Positions 57,676-64,000 of a stretch of DNA of 64,000 nt are shown here, piece after piece. Made by a program: the position numbers and the translations under genes. Source of the DNA: Thiomargarita sp. (GTDB lineage: Bacteria > Pseudomonadota > Gammaproteobacteria > Beggiatoales > Beggiatoaceae); contig DYNP01000003.1 of the NCBI GenBank assembly GCA_020721005.1, forward strand, positions 186,001 through 250,000, written 5' to 3'. How positions within the stretch are numbered: position 1 is the stretch's first letter; each line of letters opens with the position of its first letter. The notes beneath the pieces are model-generated. The model saw nothing but the letters and a program-made list of their open reading frames with translations, ran no database searches and was not told the origin of the DNA.

Positions 57676-59922
57676 TTAAAAATCATCATGATAACCAGGA
57701 ATACGTTGTTCCAAAAAGGAATCTGCCTTTTTTCCAATTCCAGTTAATCCTTTCAGTTCAAACTGTAAGAAAAACCCGTTTAAGTAACTGCTGCCATCCA
57801 CATTGTTCAAGTAACGTCGGGCAATTCCCCTGACTGCCCAACAGCAACTGTTGTATTCCAAACCAGCGAAAGTTTCCAATGTATTCTCATCTGGCAGAGA
57901 GTAATTCCAGCGTCCCAACATGCTCCAACGAGTACCAAGGGACCAATACCAGGAAATGTCGGTTTGTTCCAAAATAGAGTCTCGCAATCGATAGGATAAG
58001 TTGAGTAAATGTTCCCGGTCTGGATGGTAACGAGTTTTCAGGACTGTATGTTCAGTATTATCTTGATGGGAATCCCAACGAATTGTGGCAGCAGTTTCCC
58101 AATGGGGAGTCAATTGGCTGGAAAATTCCATAATTATGGGCGAAGATCCTTGAGTTAATTCTATGGCTTCAGTTTCTCCTGGTAGAGCTATTCGACGGTC
58201 CCGAAAATAATAGCTTTGTCCAACACTGGCACGTAAATATTCTTGCCCGGTTTCATCGCTAATCAGTCGGGAAGTAAGGGCTAAGCTGATTTGATGAGCA
58301 TCGTCAATTCGATCTGCCCCGCTGAATCGATTATGACGAAACAGTTGTCCAAAGGAAAAATCATATTCTGCAGTGTCAAAAACCGGTAAATTTTCTTGAG
58401 CCCGGTAGGGAGTGAAACGGTAAAATAGACGAGGTTCTAGAGTGTGAATACCATTTTTTCCCCACCATTCCCAATCTCGTTCCAAAAACAGTCCACTGTC
58501 AGTACTGAAGGTAAATAAGAGTCGGTCTGGAGTGTCATTGAGTTTGGAATCGTTCAATTTGTCCAAGTCGTAAAGAGTGTAACGAAGTGATAATTTGGGA
58601 ACGAGAAAGGTGCCGGAAGTGCGCCATGGGTAGACAAAAAGACCGGTTACATCGAAACGATTGCCTACAGGGGCAGTAATAATTTCCGTGTCCCGGGTAA
58701 AATGGGTGAATTCGGCAGTCAATTGGGAATTGAGTGCTCGATTGCGATTGGGCAGTGTTGTGCTCAATAATAATTGGGGTAAACGTTGATAGGGTTTTGC
58801 CCAAGGCGACGGATCTAGGGTTTGAAATCCTTGGAGACGAGTCAGCAGTTGCCAGCCTTCTCCAAAATAGTAGAGGTCCCCACGTCTTTCTAAGTGGGTT
58901 AAACTGGCAACATTGATATTGTTCCCTAATTCTTCAAAATAACGGGAATCGGAAGCATAGTTTACATTGAGGTCCGTGTACCAGCGGGGAGTGAGAATGC
59001 CTTGGTGTCGAAAGGATAGGGAGCTGCGATCTTTTCCAAAAGCTTGATCGTGGGGAAGATATTCAACTTCCAATTGTCCGCCAGTCTGAGTTGTCAGGTA
59101 ACGAAATTCAGTGTTCAGTAACAGTCCTCGTCGGGACATCATCCGAGTGGTCAGGGTTGCGTCATAATTGGGGGCTAAATTAAGGTAATAGGGAACGCTC
59201 AATTCAGTGCCTGTTTCATCTGAACTGCCGAGACTGGGAGGTAGAAAACCAGATTTTCTTGCCGAAGTGAGCGGAAAGGAGAGGTAAGGGCTATAAAATA
59301 CCGGAATGCCCAATAGATTGATTCTGACATGGCGTGCTGTTCCCATTTCAGTGTCTTCATTCAGTTCTACTTGACGGGCTTGTAATTGCCAGATTTGCTT
59401 TTCTGGGTCACAGGTGCTATAACTGGCATTTTCTAACATGATCTTATTCTCATTGACTTTGATAACTTTGTCAGCCAATCCCCAAGCCCGACGGTTCAAT
59501 AACCAATAACTGGCTTCATTCATTTCTCCACGATGTTCGGGCAACAACTTGATTTTTTGACCGCTGACGATAAACTGTTTATCCCATAAGGTAAACTGAT
59601 TGTCCGCAGCAATCTGTTCCTTATCTCGATCATAGACGATCAATTGAGTACTTAAAATTTGCTCATCCCGTTGCATCAGGACTTTCCCACTAAAAATAGA
59701 GATATTTTCCTGCTCTTGTAACACGGCCTCATCCGCAAATAACCGAATGCGACCCTTTTCAGAGGGAGGTAATTGCGGTCTAGGCGGAGCTATTTCAGTC
59801 AAGGGTTTACAAATCGCAAACTCTTCAGCAGCCAAGGCCGTACTGATAAAAAATGGAAGCCATCCTATGATAAAATAAAGTCGCACAATAATTAATCCAA
59901 CTGAATAAAAAAATTGCCACAC
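57676..59922 (-). CDS. lptD: LPS-assembly protein LptD
   Basis: 748 residues. It is the outer-membrane barrel that delivers lipopolysaccharide to the cell surface with LptE. The signal peptide (about 1-31) is followed by a periplasmic OstA-type jellyroll (DEAVLQEQENISIFSGKVLM; LLNRRAWGLADKVI) and a C-terminal barrel from about residue 210 that includes FYSPYLSFPLTSARKSGFLPP and ends in Phe. In most relatives surA follows; it is not here. No paired cysteine set typical of E. coli LptD is evident by eye beyond a few Cys (TCDPEK; NSCCWAV). Confidence 0.95.
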   Translation of the reverse strand: MWQFFYSVGLIIVRLYFIIGWLPFFISTALAAEEFAICKPLTEIAPPRPQLPPSEKGRIRLFADEAVLQEQENISIFSGKVLMQRDEQILSTQLIVYDRDKEQIAADNQFTLWDKQFIVSGQKIKLLPEHRGEMNEASYWLLNRRAWGLADKVIKVNENKIMLENASYSTCDPEKQIWQLQARQVELNEDTEMGTARHVRINLLGIPVFYSPYLSFPLTSARKSGFLPPSLGSSDETGTELSVPYYLNLAPNYDATLTTRMMSRRGLLLNTEFRYLTTQTGGQLEVEYLPHDQAFGKDRSSLSFRHQGILTPRWYTDLNVNYASDSRYFEELGNNINVASLTHLERRGDLYYFGEGWQLLTRLQGFQTLDPSPWAKPYQRLPQLLLSTTLPNRNRALNSQLTAEFTHFTRDTEIITAPVGNRFDVTGLFVYPWRTSGTFLVPKLSLRYTLYDLDKLNDSKLNDTPDRLLFTFSTDSGLFLERDWEWWGKNGIHTLEPRLFYRFTPYRAQENLPVFDTAEYDFSFGQLFRHNRFSGADRIDDAHQISLALTSRLISDETGQEYLRASVGQSYYFRDRRIALPGETEAIELTQGSSPIIMEFSSQLTPHWETAATIRWDSHQDNTEHTVLKTRYHPDREHLLNLSYRLRDSILEQTDISWYWSLGTRWSMLGRWNYSLPDENTLETFAGLEYNSCCWAVRGIARRYLNNVDGSSYLNGFFLQFELKGLTGIGKKADSFLEQRIPGYHDDF

Positions 59923-59954
59923 CCTAACAGGTGCAACACCCCGTTTTAGTCATG

Positions 59955-60121
59955 AGACCTCTTGCAAAAGACAACTCTGACCACTTTGAAGTCCGCGTAG
60001 GGTGGATAACTGTCTCTTTTCGTACCGTCATTGCCCTAACCTCAATAGGTGCATGACGCTGCGCCTATGCCCCTACGTTTATTATTTAGGGGGCAAAGAA
60101 ACGCACCACACTCCAACCTAC
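59955..60121. repeat. Repeat-element remnants between lptD and PP2C gene
   Basis: AGACCTCTTGCAAAAG (59955-59970) is identical to the left end of the elements at 25047 and 37093, but no matching right end or TA pair is seen. Further on, CAAAGAAACGCACCAC and CTCCAACCTACG resemble, inverted, the sequence after rpsB at about 27530-27560. The 275-bp gap therefore holds at least two decayed repeats and no gene. Confidence 0.55.
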
Positions 60122-60197
60122 GTGGGCTTTTGTAACAGTTCTATGATATTAGTTTGAGTGAACCCAGCAGTTATTTCAACGTTGATAAGGATAATCT

Positions 60198-61082
60198 ATG
60201 GAGTGGGAAATTGCAAAAGTAGCGCATATTGGTGGCCGCGAGGAACAACAAGACCAAAGTGCCTTCTTTTCCAATGGACAAGACCATTTACTGGTACTGG
60301 CAGATGGCATGGGAGGTCATGAAGGAGGAAAATTGGCCGCTCACGCGGTGATTGAAGCCGCCCGCCTTACTTGGCAGAATTATCAAGACTTTGAGCCCAT
60401 GTCCTTGTTATACACAATATTGGTTCGCGCTGAACAACTGATTGATGGCATTGGTGCCCAACTTAATATTTCACCTCACAGCACCTGTGTAATTTTATAT
60501 CTAACTGCCCATCAAGCCTACTGGACTCATCTTGGCGACAGTCGACTCTATCATTTTCGACGCCAGCAATTACTGAGGCGCACTCAAGACCATTCTGTTG
60601 TACAAATGCTGGTCGATTTGGGACGACTCCATGAACACTCGATGGCCAACCATCCTGATCAAGGTCGCCTGCTAAAATGGTTGGGGGGCAATCAGAAAAA
60701 CTTAGAGCCAGACTTTGGCCAAACTGTTATACGGTCTCAAAACTGCTTTGTATTGTGCAGCGACGGCTTTTGGGAACGCATTTCTCCTCAAGAAATGTCA
60801 AACGGTTTACAACGATTTGACCTTCCTCTATCAAAAATTGCCAAACACCTGGTTGCCAATGCCGTCCGGGCTGGGGGACCTCAAGGCGACAATGTGTCCG
60901 TCATCCTTGCCCGACCTAAAACAATTCCCAACCCTCGTTTGACCCAATTAAGTTACTGGTTACTGGGAATGATCCTATTACTGGCCCTCTCAATCTTGCC
61001 CATCCCATATTCCAATCCCCCACTCGATTCCTATGGCAATCAAAACACTCACCCTTCAATACAGATGATTTTAAAACCATGA
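60198..61082 (+). CDS. Membrane-anchored PP2C-family Ser/Thr phosphatase
   Basis: 294 residues. The PPM metal-binding and catalytic motifs are present: REEQQDQSAFF (motif 1 Asp), LVLADGMGGHEGGKLAAHAV, THLGDSRLYHFR, FVLCSDGFWERI and GPQGDNVSVIL. The N-terminal 245 residues are cytoplasmic. A C-terminal helix (about 253-272, YWLLGMILLLALSILPIPY) anchors it to the inner membrane. Its stop overlaps the start of the protease-FHA gene by 4 bp, so the two are made together. No Ser/Thr kinase gene is in the window. Confidence 0.93.
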   Translation: MEWEIAKVAHIGGREEQQDQSAFFSNGQDHLLVLADGMGGHEGGKLAAHAVIEAARLTWQNYQDFEPMSLLYTILVRAEQLIDGIGAQLNISPHSTCVILYLTAHQAYWTHLGDSRLYHFRRQQLLRRTQDHSVVQMLVDLGRLHEHSMANHPDQGRLLKWLGGNQKNLEPDFGQTVIRSQNCFVLCSDGFWERISPQEMSNGLQRFDLPLSKIAKHLVANAVRAGGPQGDNVSVILARPKTIPNPRLTQLSYWLLGMILLLALSILPIPYSNPPLDSYGNQNTHPSIQMILKP

Positions 61083-62287
61083 ACGGTTGGATAATACTCA
61101 GTTTCCTAACCTTAGTCAACTTAGCCAACCCCAATTTTGCTGAGTTAGACAAAAGTGTAGTACTTATCCTCAACCAACAAGGAAACATTGGCACTGGCTT
61201 CGTCATCAACCAACGTCCCCAAGTCGTAACCAACTATCATGTAGTAGCCAATGGAGGCTCACTTTCCGCAGCCCTCTCCCAAGATCACCGTACCGAACAC
61301 ATTGCCCTCAAACCAGCCCAACTCATCTGGTTTTCCCAAGAAAAAGACCTGGCTCTACTGGAAGTTCCCGGCTTAAACTGCCCTACTTTACCCCTCACCC
61401 CTTTTGAACCTGACAAAGGCAGTCCAGTCTATGCCATTGGTTTTCCAGAAGCCGCCGAAGTTCTCACTGAACGTTTAACTGCCGAAAGCAGTGTTACCAT
61501 GGGCACCCTCAGTCGAATGATCAATGCCACTTGGGAAGGCAATACCTCTCCATTTCGCATCATTCAACACACCTCAGAAATAAACTCTGGTAATAGCGGA
61601 GGTCCACTCCTAAACACCTGTGGACAAGTTATAGGTATCAACACCGTCAAAACCTCCCTCGTTGCCTCCCTGACCAGTGGCGAAATCATCAGTGGTGTCT
61701 TCTTTGCCAGCCACAGCTCAGTTCTAATTGACGCCCTGAAAAATCAACACATTCCATTCACTGAAATCACACAACCCTGTATAATAACTGAAAAAAATCC
61801 AGAATACATCTCCCAAAATAACTGGATTCAATGGACCATTATTGCCATTTTAACTGCCCTTTTAATCCTGCTGCTCATTTTACGGCAAAAACAACAATTT
61901 CTCATGGCCATTCCCCAATCCAATTATCCGAAATCCCATTCCAATCCAACAACTCCAACTCCCCAAACAACCTATTCCCTCATTGAACAAACCTCCCAAC
62001 AAGCCCTCTACCACATTCCCAAAACTCAAGCTTACACTTGGGACAAAGGATGGGTAATAGGAAGCTCCCCTCAACTGGCTGACTGCGTTTTTCCTCAAAT
62101 CAACCTATCCAATCGACACGCTCGTTTAATTCTCCTTAAAAATCAATTGCACATCGAAGACTTAAACTCCTTCACTGGTACCTGGGTCAACGGACAACAA
62201 TTAAAACCCTTTCAACCACTCCCCTTGACCTCAGGCAATCTGATCAAAATGGGACACCTGGAATTACAACTGGTGATTTCCGCCTAA
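61079..62287 (+). CDS. Transmembrane trypsin-like protease with C-terminal FHA domain
   Basis: 402 residues. A signal/anchor helix (about 1-20), then an S1C/HtrA-like serine protease with His54 (VTNYHVV), Asp90 (EKDLALLEV) and Ser173 (NSGNSGGPLL). There is no PDZ domain. A helix at about 247-268 (WIQWTIIAILTALLILLLIL) crosses the membrane, so the protease faces the periplasm and the C-terminal FHA domain (about 320-402) the cytoplasm. The FHA keeps Ser and His of LSNRHARL but has Ser for the usual Arg (IGSS for IGR) and Thr for Asn (SFTGTWVNG), so phosphothreonine binding is uncertain. Coupled to the PP2C gene upstream. Confidence 0.9.
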   Translation: MNGWIILSFLTLVNLANPNFAELDKSVVLILNQQGNIGTGFVINQRPQVVTNYHVVANGGSLSAALSQDHRTEHIALKPAQLIWFSQEKDLALLEVPGLNCPTLPLTPFEPDKGSPVYAIGFPEAAEVLTERLTAESSVTMGTLSRMINATWEGNTSPFRIIQHTSEINSGNSGGPLLNTCGQVIGINTVKTSLVASLTSGEIISGVFFASHSSVLIDALKNQHIPFTEITQPCIITEKNPEYISQNNWIQWTIIAILTALLILLLILRQKQQFLMAIPQSNYPKSHSNPTTPTPQTTYSLIEQTSQQALYHIPKTQAYTWDKGWVIGSSPQLADCVFPQINLSNRHARLILLKNQLHIEDLNSFTGTWVNGQQLKPFQPLPLTSGNLIKMGHLELQLVISA

Positions 62288-62326
62288 AAAATCAAAACCC
62301 ATTGACTCAAAACACACCCTAACACT

Positions 62327-64000
62327 ATGAAACTTCATCTCTTCACCTACCCACTCATCTTCCTAATCCACTCCAATCTAACCATTGCTGAAGATGACCT
62401 GCTTTCCCAACAACGCTGGCAATTTAAAGAAGCTCAACATGCTTTGGCTACCGAAAATTTTACCCTATTTAATCAACGCATTGAACAACTGCACGACTAT
62501 CCCATCGTCTATTACCTGCGCTATTTCTACCTAAAAGACCGCTTACATATCGCTCCCATTGCGGAACTATTTGACTTTCTCAACCACTATGCAGACAGTC
62601 CCATCACCCAACGACTCCAACAACAATGGCTCCAACAACTCGCCACCCAACAACAATGGGCCACTTTTTTAAGTGCCTACACTCCACAAACCGAAATCAC
62701 CTTACAATGCAATTACTTACACGCCCTACTTGCCACCGAAACCCCCTGGCAACCTGCAGACTTTACACAAGCCAAAGCCATTTGGATGGTGGACCATTCC
62801 CAACCTCAAGCCTGTGACTCTGCATTTGACTATCTCCATCAACAAACTCAACTGACCCCTCACGACTATTGGCAACGCATTCGTTTAGCCATACAAAAAG
62901 GCAATTTTAAACTGGCTCTACATCTTGGAAAACAACTGCCCAAAACCGATGTGCCCCTATTAAACCTATGGCAAAACCTCCATCATTCCCCAGAAAATAC
63001 CCTAAAAAACTTTAAACAAACCGACACTGAATTAACCAGAGAAATGCTAGTTTATGGACTCAAACAACTCGCCAACACCCAACCTGACAAAGCCAAAGAA
63101 TATTGGCAACTCTATCAGAAACAATATACATTTAACCGCGCCCAACGAAAAGAACTCCAACAACTGTTAGCTTCCAAAGAAACCGAAAAAAATCCACCTG
63201 TAACAACCGCTTGGAAAATAACCGATCCAAAATTCAACGAAGAAACTGGGCGAACTCACCTACAAAAAGCCTTGCTGCAACAAAACTGGTCAGAAATTGC
63301 CGAATCCACCCAAAATTTGCCAATTGCTGAAAACAACAAATTACGCTGGTCCTATTGGCGCGCCCGGGCTTTGGAACAATTGGGCAATATCACAGAAGCG
63401 GAACAATATTACCAAACTGTGGCTCAACAACGAGACTATTATGGTTTTCTATCTGCCGAACGTTTGGGAGAACCTTATCAATTACAAGTCCGTTCCCTAC
63501 CTCGTAACCTCCCTTTAGAAACTCAACTCTCGAAACGCCCGGGTATCATTCGAGCCAGAGAATTGTATTTCGTGGGACTGGCAGAATATGCTCAATTAGA
63601 ATGGAATACCGCCCTAGACAACACTTCTCCAGAAGAACTGCCGGCTGCCACCTGGCTTGCTCACCAATGGGGCTGGCATTACCAAGCCATTGTTACCATT
63701 GCCAAAATTCCATTTTGGGACGATCTGAATATCCGCTTCCCCCTTGCATTTCACGACGCCATTTCTCGTCATGCCGAAACCCAACAACTCCCATTGGCTT
63801 GGGTATATGCTATTGTTCGCCAAGAAAGTGCATTGCAAGTAGAAGCCAAATCCCGAGCCGGGGCTTTGGGACTGATGCAATTACTGCCCAGCACGGCCAA
63901 AGAAATGGCGAGAATACAAAAAGTTAACTTAGTGGACGATAACCTGCTCTTTACTCCAGACATGAATATTCAATTGGGCACGACTTACCTAAAAACCCTA
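62327..64000 (+). CDS. slt: Soluble lytic murein transglycosylase, C-terminus cut by window edge
   Basis: 558 codons are visible from the ATG at 62327 and the frame is open at the right edge. A signal peptide (KLHLFTYPLIFLIHSNLTIA) is followed by the all-helical U-shaped superhelix (about 25-470) and the start of the SLT catalytic domain: AWVYAIVRQESALQVEAKSR with catalytic Glu500, then AGALGLMQLLPSTAKEMAR. It cleaves peptidoglycan glycan strands to 1,6-anhydromuropeptides. It begins 39 bp after the protease-FHA gene on the same strand and may share its transcript. Confidence 0.94.
   Translation, partial: MKLHLFTYPLIFLIHSNLTIAEDDLLSQQRWQFKEAQHALATENFTLFNQRIEQLHDYPIVYYLRYFYLKDRLHIAPIAELFDFLNHYADSPITQRLQQQWLQQLATQQQWATFLSAYTPQTEITLQCNYLHALLATETPWQPADFTQAKAIWMVDHSQPQACDSAFDYLHQQTQLTPHDYWQRIRLAIQKGNFKLALHLGKQLPKTDVPLLNLWQNLHHSPENTLKNFKQTDTELTREMLVYGLKQLANTQPDKAKEYWQLYQKQYTFNRAQRKELQQLLASKETEKNPPVTTAWKITDPKFNEETGRTHLQKALLQQNWSEIAESTQNLPIAENNKLRWSYWRARALEQLGNITEAEQYYQTVAQQRDYYGFLSAERLGEPYQLQVRSLPRNLPLETQLSKRPGIIRARELYFVGLAEYAQLEWNTALDNTSPEELPAATWLAHQWGWHYQAIVTIAKIPFWDDLNIRFPLAFHDAISRHAETQQLPLAWVYAIVRQESALQVEAKSRAGALGLMQLLPSTAKEMARIQKVNLVDDNLLFTPDMNIQLGTTYLKTL

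Follow-up and report, generated by a model that had tools for sequence, protein, structure and literature searches.

A PP2C phosphatase and membrane protease-FHA gene pair in Thiomargarita as the candidate protease arm of a dispersed envelope-signalling module

Near the end of a 64,000-nucleotide stretch of Thiomargarita sp. DNA (the window; G000:C96:186001-250000, where G, C and L labels are our own handles for genomes, contigs and loci), a PP2C phosphatase gene overlaps a gene for a protein that joins a trypsin-like domain, a transmembrane (TM) segment and an FHA domain (protease-FHA or trypsin-FHA), and the murein transglycosylase gene slt follows. This layout raises the question of whether the locus is a signalling circuit of its own or part of a larger system. 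The initial annotation proposed a signal across the membrane in which the FHA domain senses phosphorylation, the phosphatase resets it and the protease acts on an envelope target, perhaps in murein turnover. The PP2C/FHA/protease combination does recur in other genomes; the murein link fell away, and ExbB-like and TolR-like partners encoded elsewhere in the genome (G000, 4.05 Mb over 133 contigs) had been missed. The annotation had guessed the right kind of thing from a fragment, trans-membrane signalling, with the main parts lying outside the window. We give about even weight to the reading that a conserved envelope-signalling module is present here as a dispersed copy and that the window pair forms its protease arm; the component set is visible in the sequences, and the mechanism is what we infer from them.

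The module comprises a small FHA protein, an ExbB/TolQ-like protein, a second FHA protein, a PP2C phosphatase, one or two trypsin-TM-FHA proteins, a TolR-like single-pass protein and a kinase. Neither of the two small FHA proteins has a predicted membrane segment. Among 57 genomes, 36 of them of the family, long relatives of the window's protease-FHA protein were found in G003, G004, G008, G016, G017 and G021, a split one in G001 and a more distant one in G036. The PP2C gene adjoins the protease-FHA gene on the same strand in G017, G021, G016 and G036 and divergently in G004; the G008 contig begins at the protease, so that a PP2C neighbour would not be visible. The combination is thus a recurrent one and not a product of chance neighbours. 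The next gene downstream of protease-FHA in G001, G003, G004, G008, G017 and G021 encodes a protein of ~220-300 aa with one N-terminal membrane helix (the G004 copy is broken by a run of N), and kinases, small FHA proteins and a MotA/ExbB protein lie near protease-FHA in several relatives. The earlier remark that no kinase is nearby is correct for the window, where the kinase model has no match, and does not extend beyond it: the genome has 16 Pkinase matches, and in relatives the kinases are linked to the pair together with more FHA proteins and two further membrane proteins.

The components are also carried by the same genomes. Among the 36 family genomes, protease-FHA occurs in 8, the TolR-like protein in 9 and both in 8 (p 3e-7); the ExbB-like protein occurs in 9 and is shared with protease-FHA in 7 (p 3e-5), each p value treating genomes as independent. 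These counts take the split G001 frame and a truncated G030 ExbB-like protein as present and leave out the divergent G036 (another family), weak TolR-like matches in G007, G011, G022, G023, G031 and G034 (E 2e-8 to 1e-4), ExbB matches weaker than 1e-30 (including a G035 fragment) and FHA-only relatives. A sample of 369 genomes of the class gave full protease-FHA in 7, the N-terminal part of the TolR-like protein in 9 and both in 6 (p 1.7e-10), leaving out G102 and G307 (C-terminal TolR-like domain only) and G144, G232 and G260 (protease part only). Five of the six co-carriers have both genes on one contig within ~0.5 kb, and the exception is the window's genome.

A protein-pattern search of genome contigs with the protease found no relative, and a profile search of such contigs with the TolR-like alignment found 133, the best 80 of which gave 77 loci. 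Hidden Markov models (HMMs) matched FHA in 55 of these loci, ExbB in 52, kinase in 44, PP2C in 42 and trypsin in 41; the TolR-like protein, by which the loci were picked and whose frequency there is therefore uninformative, was matched in 67 by HMM and in all 77 by tblastn. All six component types occur together in 22 of the 77 loci and at least five types in 35, and these locus counts are lower bounds because many contigs are short. Several of the loci are family genomes already counted under G labels, and profile set A3, built from such loci, favours like neighbours. The commonest neighbours are FHA followed by ExbB (32), trypsin-FHA by TolR-like (29), FHA by PP2C (28) and ExbB by FHA (26). 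Same-strand component pairs less than 300 bp apart number 265, with a median gap of 9 bp and 82 overlaps (starts assigned mechanically), and in 28 of 39 loci a trypsin-FHA gene on the same strand ends at most 200 bp from the TolR-like start. Twenty hand-chosen, non-random control regions of 19 kb (380 kb) in five of these genomes gave one FHA match and nothing else. On the window, the component HMMs match its two genes alone.

The records that bear trypsin-FHA are labelled Proteobacteria, Binatota, Acidobacteria, Latescibacterota, Calditrichia, Gemmatimonadota, Phycisphaerales and Arcobacter. Nitrincola alkalisediminis has all six types and a complete catalytic triad, Alteromonas has a dead protease, and Marinobacter has no trypsin. 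In a phage collection, 16 records match, the protease domain accounting for 15 of them and the FHA part for one, and no match reaches 80% coverage; plasmids contributed one Rhizobium record with a TolR-like protein.

The ExbB-like and TolR-like proteins resemble the two halves of a proton-driven motor. The ExbB-like protein has three helices; that of the window's genome, on C104 (L004:7041-7793), matches PF01618 (MotA_ExbB) at 1.1e-11. T172, T207 and T208 (C104 numbering), located in the second and third hydrophobic segments and presumably the motor threonines by their position, are invariant in 60 of 60 ExbB-like rows, some of which represent one gene under two locus ids. In the TolR-like protein, Asp17 of the membrane helix is invariant in alignments A1 (8 rows) and A4 (31 rows) and is seen along 79 frames, partly by construction. 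The model of the G021 protein (mean predicted local distance difference test score, pLDDT, 92.1) has a long helix (11-97) followed by a C-terminal beta sandwich. Compared with solved structures, the sandwich is closest to 2qng, a protein of unknown function (Z 10.6, 126 residues, 3.5 A), and to the TerD homologue 2qz7 (Z 10.2, 125 aligned, 3.6 A), followed by 9a6r (Z 9.8) and 7jtk (Z 9.1); the next row scores 6.9. DUF2135 is matched in 3 of 31 TolR-like members, at best at 0.0015, and no Pfam TerD match was seen in the G021 protein or, among the matches listed, in the 31 members. No vWA fold is among the matches listed for the sandwich in VIA-align, which does not exclude one. TerD binds calcium, and calcium binding by the TolR-like sandwich is so far just an idea. 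In a Thiomargarita genome, a caspase-domain (Peptidase_C14) protein is encoded next after the TolR-like gene (L062:9431-10807). Six loci of Hellea-type alphaproteobacteria (L189, L193, L195, L200, L201 and L205) carry two TolR-like genes and then an ExbB-like gene, with no kinase, PP2C or FHA matches; these are perhaps the heterologous motor pairs of PMC12204202.

In the window's genome, contig C104 carries, in order, the genes for the small FHA protein, the ExbB-like protein, FHA2 and a PP2C phosphatase, and the TolR-like gene is located on C11 (L101:9386-10045). FHA domains were found genome-wide at two places by Pfam and at a third, in FHA2, by a protein scan, and all three fall within module loci. 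The comparison of kinases covered ten of the 16 Pkinase matches, those with loci: the C117 kinase is 62% identical over 293 aa to a kinase in the Parabeggiatoa locus, and the C77 kinase shares 34% identity over 486 aa with one that adjoins a TolR-like gene in L143. No other module part was found in the 19 kb fetched around either gene. A separate kinase-PP2C pair lies on C108, away from other module parts (L103:7395-10836), and in Candidatus Thiomargarita nelsonii two frames that match both the kinase and FHA models occur near the trypsin-FHA gene (L131:14462-17951).

The protease-FHA protein of the window keeps its catalytic triad. The three residues proposed for it align with the catalytic positions of 49 homologues, in which the His is kept in 42, the Asp in 41 and the Ser in 35. 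The full triad is present in 34 homologues; 14 lack the Ser, and one is cut at a contig edge (L157, whose contig begins at the lost His column). The L129 protease, whose FHA domain is in another frame, was left out of the 50 aligned proteins. Among solved structures, Foldseek ranks first the protease domain of DegS lacking PDZ (3lgi, 8.6e-15), and no PDZ domain was found in the protein by Pfam at 0.001. It scores 77.8 bits against the MarP NCBIfam cut-off of 250, and the cut-off of the DegS model is likewise far above its score. In an AlphaFold2 model built from 36 sequences (mean pLDDT 84.4), a helix at aa 244-276 lies between the two domains; hydropathy places the hydrophobic segment at aa 250-268. 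Because Arg/Lys residues directly follow this segment, the protease domain is expected outside and the FHA domain inside.

The FHA domain is recognised by Pfam and departs from the canonical Arg/Ser/His/Asn set at the two positions flagged initially. Both changes are real: the Arg is kept in 46 and the Asn in 45 of the 49 homologues, and among the 50 aligned FHA proteins only the window's has lost both. We take these residues, from general knowledge of FHA domains, to be phosphate contacts. The window copy may therefore not bind phosphothreonine, and the loss of two contacts suggests that its place in the complex may not depend on phosphate.

Ten loci carry two trypsin-FHA genes in tandem. In all ten pairs, the upstream copy lacks the catalytic Ser (replaced by Phe, Tyr or Ala) and the downstream copy has His-Asp-Ser; together with four copies that stand alone, these ten make up the 14 Ser-less homologues. 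The presence of a dead first copy in every pair seen points to a regulated heteromer.

In a tree of 66 PP2C proteins, the window's belongs to a branch of 10 rows (97/79), itself nested in one of 23 rows (100/98). Seven members of the 10-row branch adjoin msbA, whether or not the genome has the module, and all seven neighbours scanned score above the MsbA cut-off. The C104 PP2C lies on the other side of the tree, among most operon PP2Cs, and some operon-borne PP2Cs (L153, L155, L163 and L164) share the window's branch; by sequence, two PP2C kinds therefore serve module loci. Since the msbA-linked branch occurs irrespective of the module, the window PP2C may be a recruited or broad phosphatase. 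At L068:3508-4907 and L069:9085-10484, a PP2C gene behind msbA overlaps one for a short membrane FHA protein without a protease domain.

Further genes accompany the module at some loci. An exported-looking protein of 360-533 aa, one example of which falls just short of the cut-off for a PPC domain, lies between the kinase and trypsin-FHA genes at four loci (Table 1) and is a possible partner, sensor or substrate of the protease. Another family placed inside the module, a protein of 232-248 aa with an FTP propeptide motif, was found in L166, L168, L174 and a fourth locus, with no trypsin match where checked. On the Rhizobium leguminosarum plasmid pRlBT01d (NZ_CP125637.1, L268:4859-22658), two PP2Cs, two kinases and ExbB-like and TolR-like proteins occur with a 1610-aa protein that has no Pfam match and with an FHA protein of 500 aa; the latter matches vWA_2 weakly (0.0014), lacks trypsin and seems to have had its periplasmic part exchanged. 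Together with the exported-looking proteins, this variant points to exchangeable periplasmic parts. A shared extra family as hidden effector was rejected: clustering of the remaining frames put no other family in more than nine of 49 loci. The cluster that reaches nine loci resembles antisense frames in GC-rich DNA, and several of the rest resemble backbone genes.

The gene layout of the window agrees with the initial annotation in its open reading frames (ORFs), strand, coordinates, overlap and gap (Table 1). The slt gene starts at 62327 on the same strand, 39 bp after the protease-FHA gene, and extends past the window end; its frame is complete in L003 (644 aa; Pfam SLT_L and SLT). The lptD gene lies divergently upstream of the PP2C gene. 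No terminator-like match was found at either junction of the three genes. Within 59800-62500, promoter-like matches (5 vs 3.8 in shuffles, sd 2.0) and terminator-like matches (4 vs 2.7, sd 1.9) show no clear excess. With no junction terminators and promoter matches at shuffle level, co-transcription of the three genes is plausible but unproven.

Table 1. Coordinates of the features in the window and of the exported-looking protein at module loci.
Feature	Position	Strand	Basis or context
PP2C phosphatase, 294 aa, cytoplasmic catalytic domain and C-terminal membrane segment	60198..61082	+	ORF; Pfam PP2C_2 9.4e-10; tree
PP2C C-terminal hydrophobic segment, aa 251-269	60948..61004	+	hydropathy
Stop/start overlap, 4 bp, PP2C gene / protease-FHA gene	61079..61082	+	ORF calls
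Trypsin-TM-FHA protein, 402 aa	61079..62287	+	ORF; Pfam; alignment; model
Trypsin-like domain (DegS-like, no PDZ), aa 38-187, His54/Asp90/Ser173	61190..61639	+	Trypsin_2 1.2e-26; Foldseek; alignment
Membrane-crossing helix (predicted), aa 244-276	61808..61906	+	model; hydropathy
FHA domain, aa 325-392, Arg to Ser329, Asn to Thr366	62051..62254	+	Pfam 7.2e-14; alignment
Exported-looking protein	L137:7874-8956; L139:12688-13776; L146:12649-14250; L203:12553-14130		between kinase and trypsin-FHA genes

Several observations weigh against assigning the window pair to such a module. Its parts in G000 are spread over three contigs (C96, C104 and C11), with the likely kinase on a fourth (C117); the module places lie at least 21 kb from contig ends, so the split is not an end effect. 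The window PP2C falls outside the core module branch, the core PP2C being the separate gene on C104, and in G001 and G003 the PP2C gene does not adjoin that of the protease but lies on another contig. The co-occurrence statistics ignore kinship, and many tandem pairs come from related lineages (six loci labelled Latescibacterota or Gemmatimonadota, two Binatota), so that the independent events are fewer than ten. One of the search patterns used for the TolR-like protein contains the helix Asp, and no Pfam ExbD/TolR match was found in the G021 protein or, among the 25 of 95 families listed, for the 31 members. A dead protease stands alone at four loci (L179, L187, L190 and L199), and trypsin was not seen at several loci with other components (for example, L168, L173, L174, L182 and L188). 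Proteolysis therefore cannot be the sole output everywhere; in some species the fold may serve for binding or as a scaffold, and in others something else may take its place.

The dispersal of the module in G000, the loss of the FHA Arg and Asn and the mostly msbA-linked PP2C branch would also suit a decayed or repurposed remnant, in which a general msbA-linked PP2C sits beside an orphaned protease-FHA that no longer reads phosphothreonine. We regard this reading as somewhat unlikely, since both frames are intact and overlap by 4 bp, the triad is kept, all six component types persist in the genome and the PP2C-protease neighbourhood recurs in the five genomes named above. A circuit of the three window genes, in which PP2C and FHA set the protease for murein turnover with Slt, draws on the position of slt, on a MltB-type gene between two kinases of the G021 cluster and on an SLT-like domain ~8 kb from the protease in G016 (in a 779-aa frame). 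Slt matches occur in 53 of the 57 genomes, some to the SLT domain alone, but in the 8 other protease-FHA genomes no full-length Slt among the matches listed lies on the protease contig (three of these contigs are only 3-11 kb long), and in all 8 it is on other contigs. A clear MltB-type match was found in 2 of the 77 loci (L149 and L171), with weak MltB or SLT matches in 4 more. The murein link through Slt was therefore rejected, the adjacency of slt in the window is regarded as incidental, and the local circuit is very unlikely.

If the module were a defence against phage, the motor would be its sensor, as in Zorya, and the protease its effector; this reading would account for loose PADLOC matches of the ExbB-like protein to ZorA (3.5e-7, partial), of the G021 kinase to mads_6 and PD-T4-6, of the window PP2C to PDC-M21C (4.3e-13) and of the protease to RT-Protease_XI (3.3e-17). 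However, the G000 TolR-like protein, the ZorB counterpart, and both small FHA proteins have no PADLOC match at 0.01, the other matches are probably those expected of any relative of common domains, and no family outside the module exceeds nine of 49 loci. With loose matches only, a catalogued defence system was rejected, and we consider a defence role improbable. A role as accessory regulator in type VI secretion is suggested by the similar kinase-PP2C-FHA logic of that system, in which PpkA, PppA and Fha, a kinase, a PP2C and an FHA protein, act together in threonine phosphorylation. VipB/TssC was not found in G000, with a positive E. coli control; this role was rejected for the window's genome on the missing sheath match, and we give it almost no credence.

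Taking the window pair as the protease arm of a dispersed module, the components suggest how it might work. The ExbB-like and TolR-like proteins would form a proton-driven, motor-like 5:2 complex whose periplasmic domain senses or pulls the envelope. The kinase and PP2C would set threonine phosphorylation of module members, which the FHA domains would read, thereby gathering or gating the motor and protease. The active protease would then cleave a periplasmic target, modulated by its dead sister where present; the window copy may remain in the complex whatever the phosphate state. More tentatively, we propose an undescribed trans-envelope machine, with a proton motor bearing a TerD-like periplasmic sensor, kinase/PP2C/FHA clamps and an active/dead DegS-like pair, in which phosphorylation and membrane energy would together decide proteolysis outside the inner membrane. 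Proton-driven 5:2 complexes are known to drive flagella, to import nutrients, to maintain the outer membrane and to defend against phage. If the proposal is correct, wiring to serine/threonine phosphorylation and a membrane protease would be a new use of this motor, and the module would provide a new bacterial route from an internal phospho-signal to periplasmic proteolysis.

No description of this combination was recognised in searches of an open-access library, which mostly does not extend to subscription journals, and the parts of PMC7159879, PMC8195603 and PMC12505986 consulted do not describe the operon. The module is thus a set of known families in a combination not found described, with a mechanism that would follow from them and a window copy that may be altered. 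Compared with DegS, HtrA and MarP, the window protease shares the membrane anchoring and is closest to DegS in fold, but it has no PDZ match, its anchor follows the protease domain and an FHA domain lies behind the anchor. Unlike the type VI secretion pathway, the module has proton-motor-like and protease parts, with no VipB sheath gene found in G000. Zorya likewise has several components, with a MotA-like protein and its single-pass partner among them, but the TolR-like protein lacks a PADLOC match at 0.01 (no dedicated ZorC/ZorD search was made). TolQ-like motors with TPH-vWA partners have no classical TolR, and the partner helix carries the proton-binding Asp (PMC12204202). The module similarly has a TolQ-like gene without classical TolR and an Asp in the partner helix; however, the part of that account consulted names vWA and no FHA, PP2C, kinase or trypsin (PMC12204202), and the module sandwich is nearest to 2qng and 2qz7. 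With ExbB-ExbD, TolQ-TolR and MotA-MotB, the module shares the MotA_ExbB match, invariant membrane threonines and a single-pass partner with a helix Asp. It differs from them in that this partner is a long helix with a TerD/DUF2135-like sandwich and no Pfam ExbD match, and in that its motor sits in a kinase/PP2C/FHA/protease operon.

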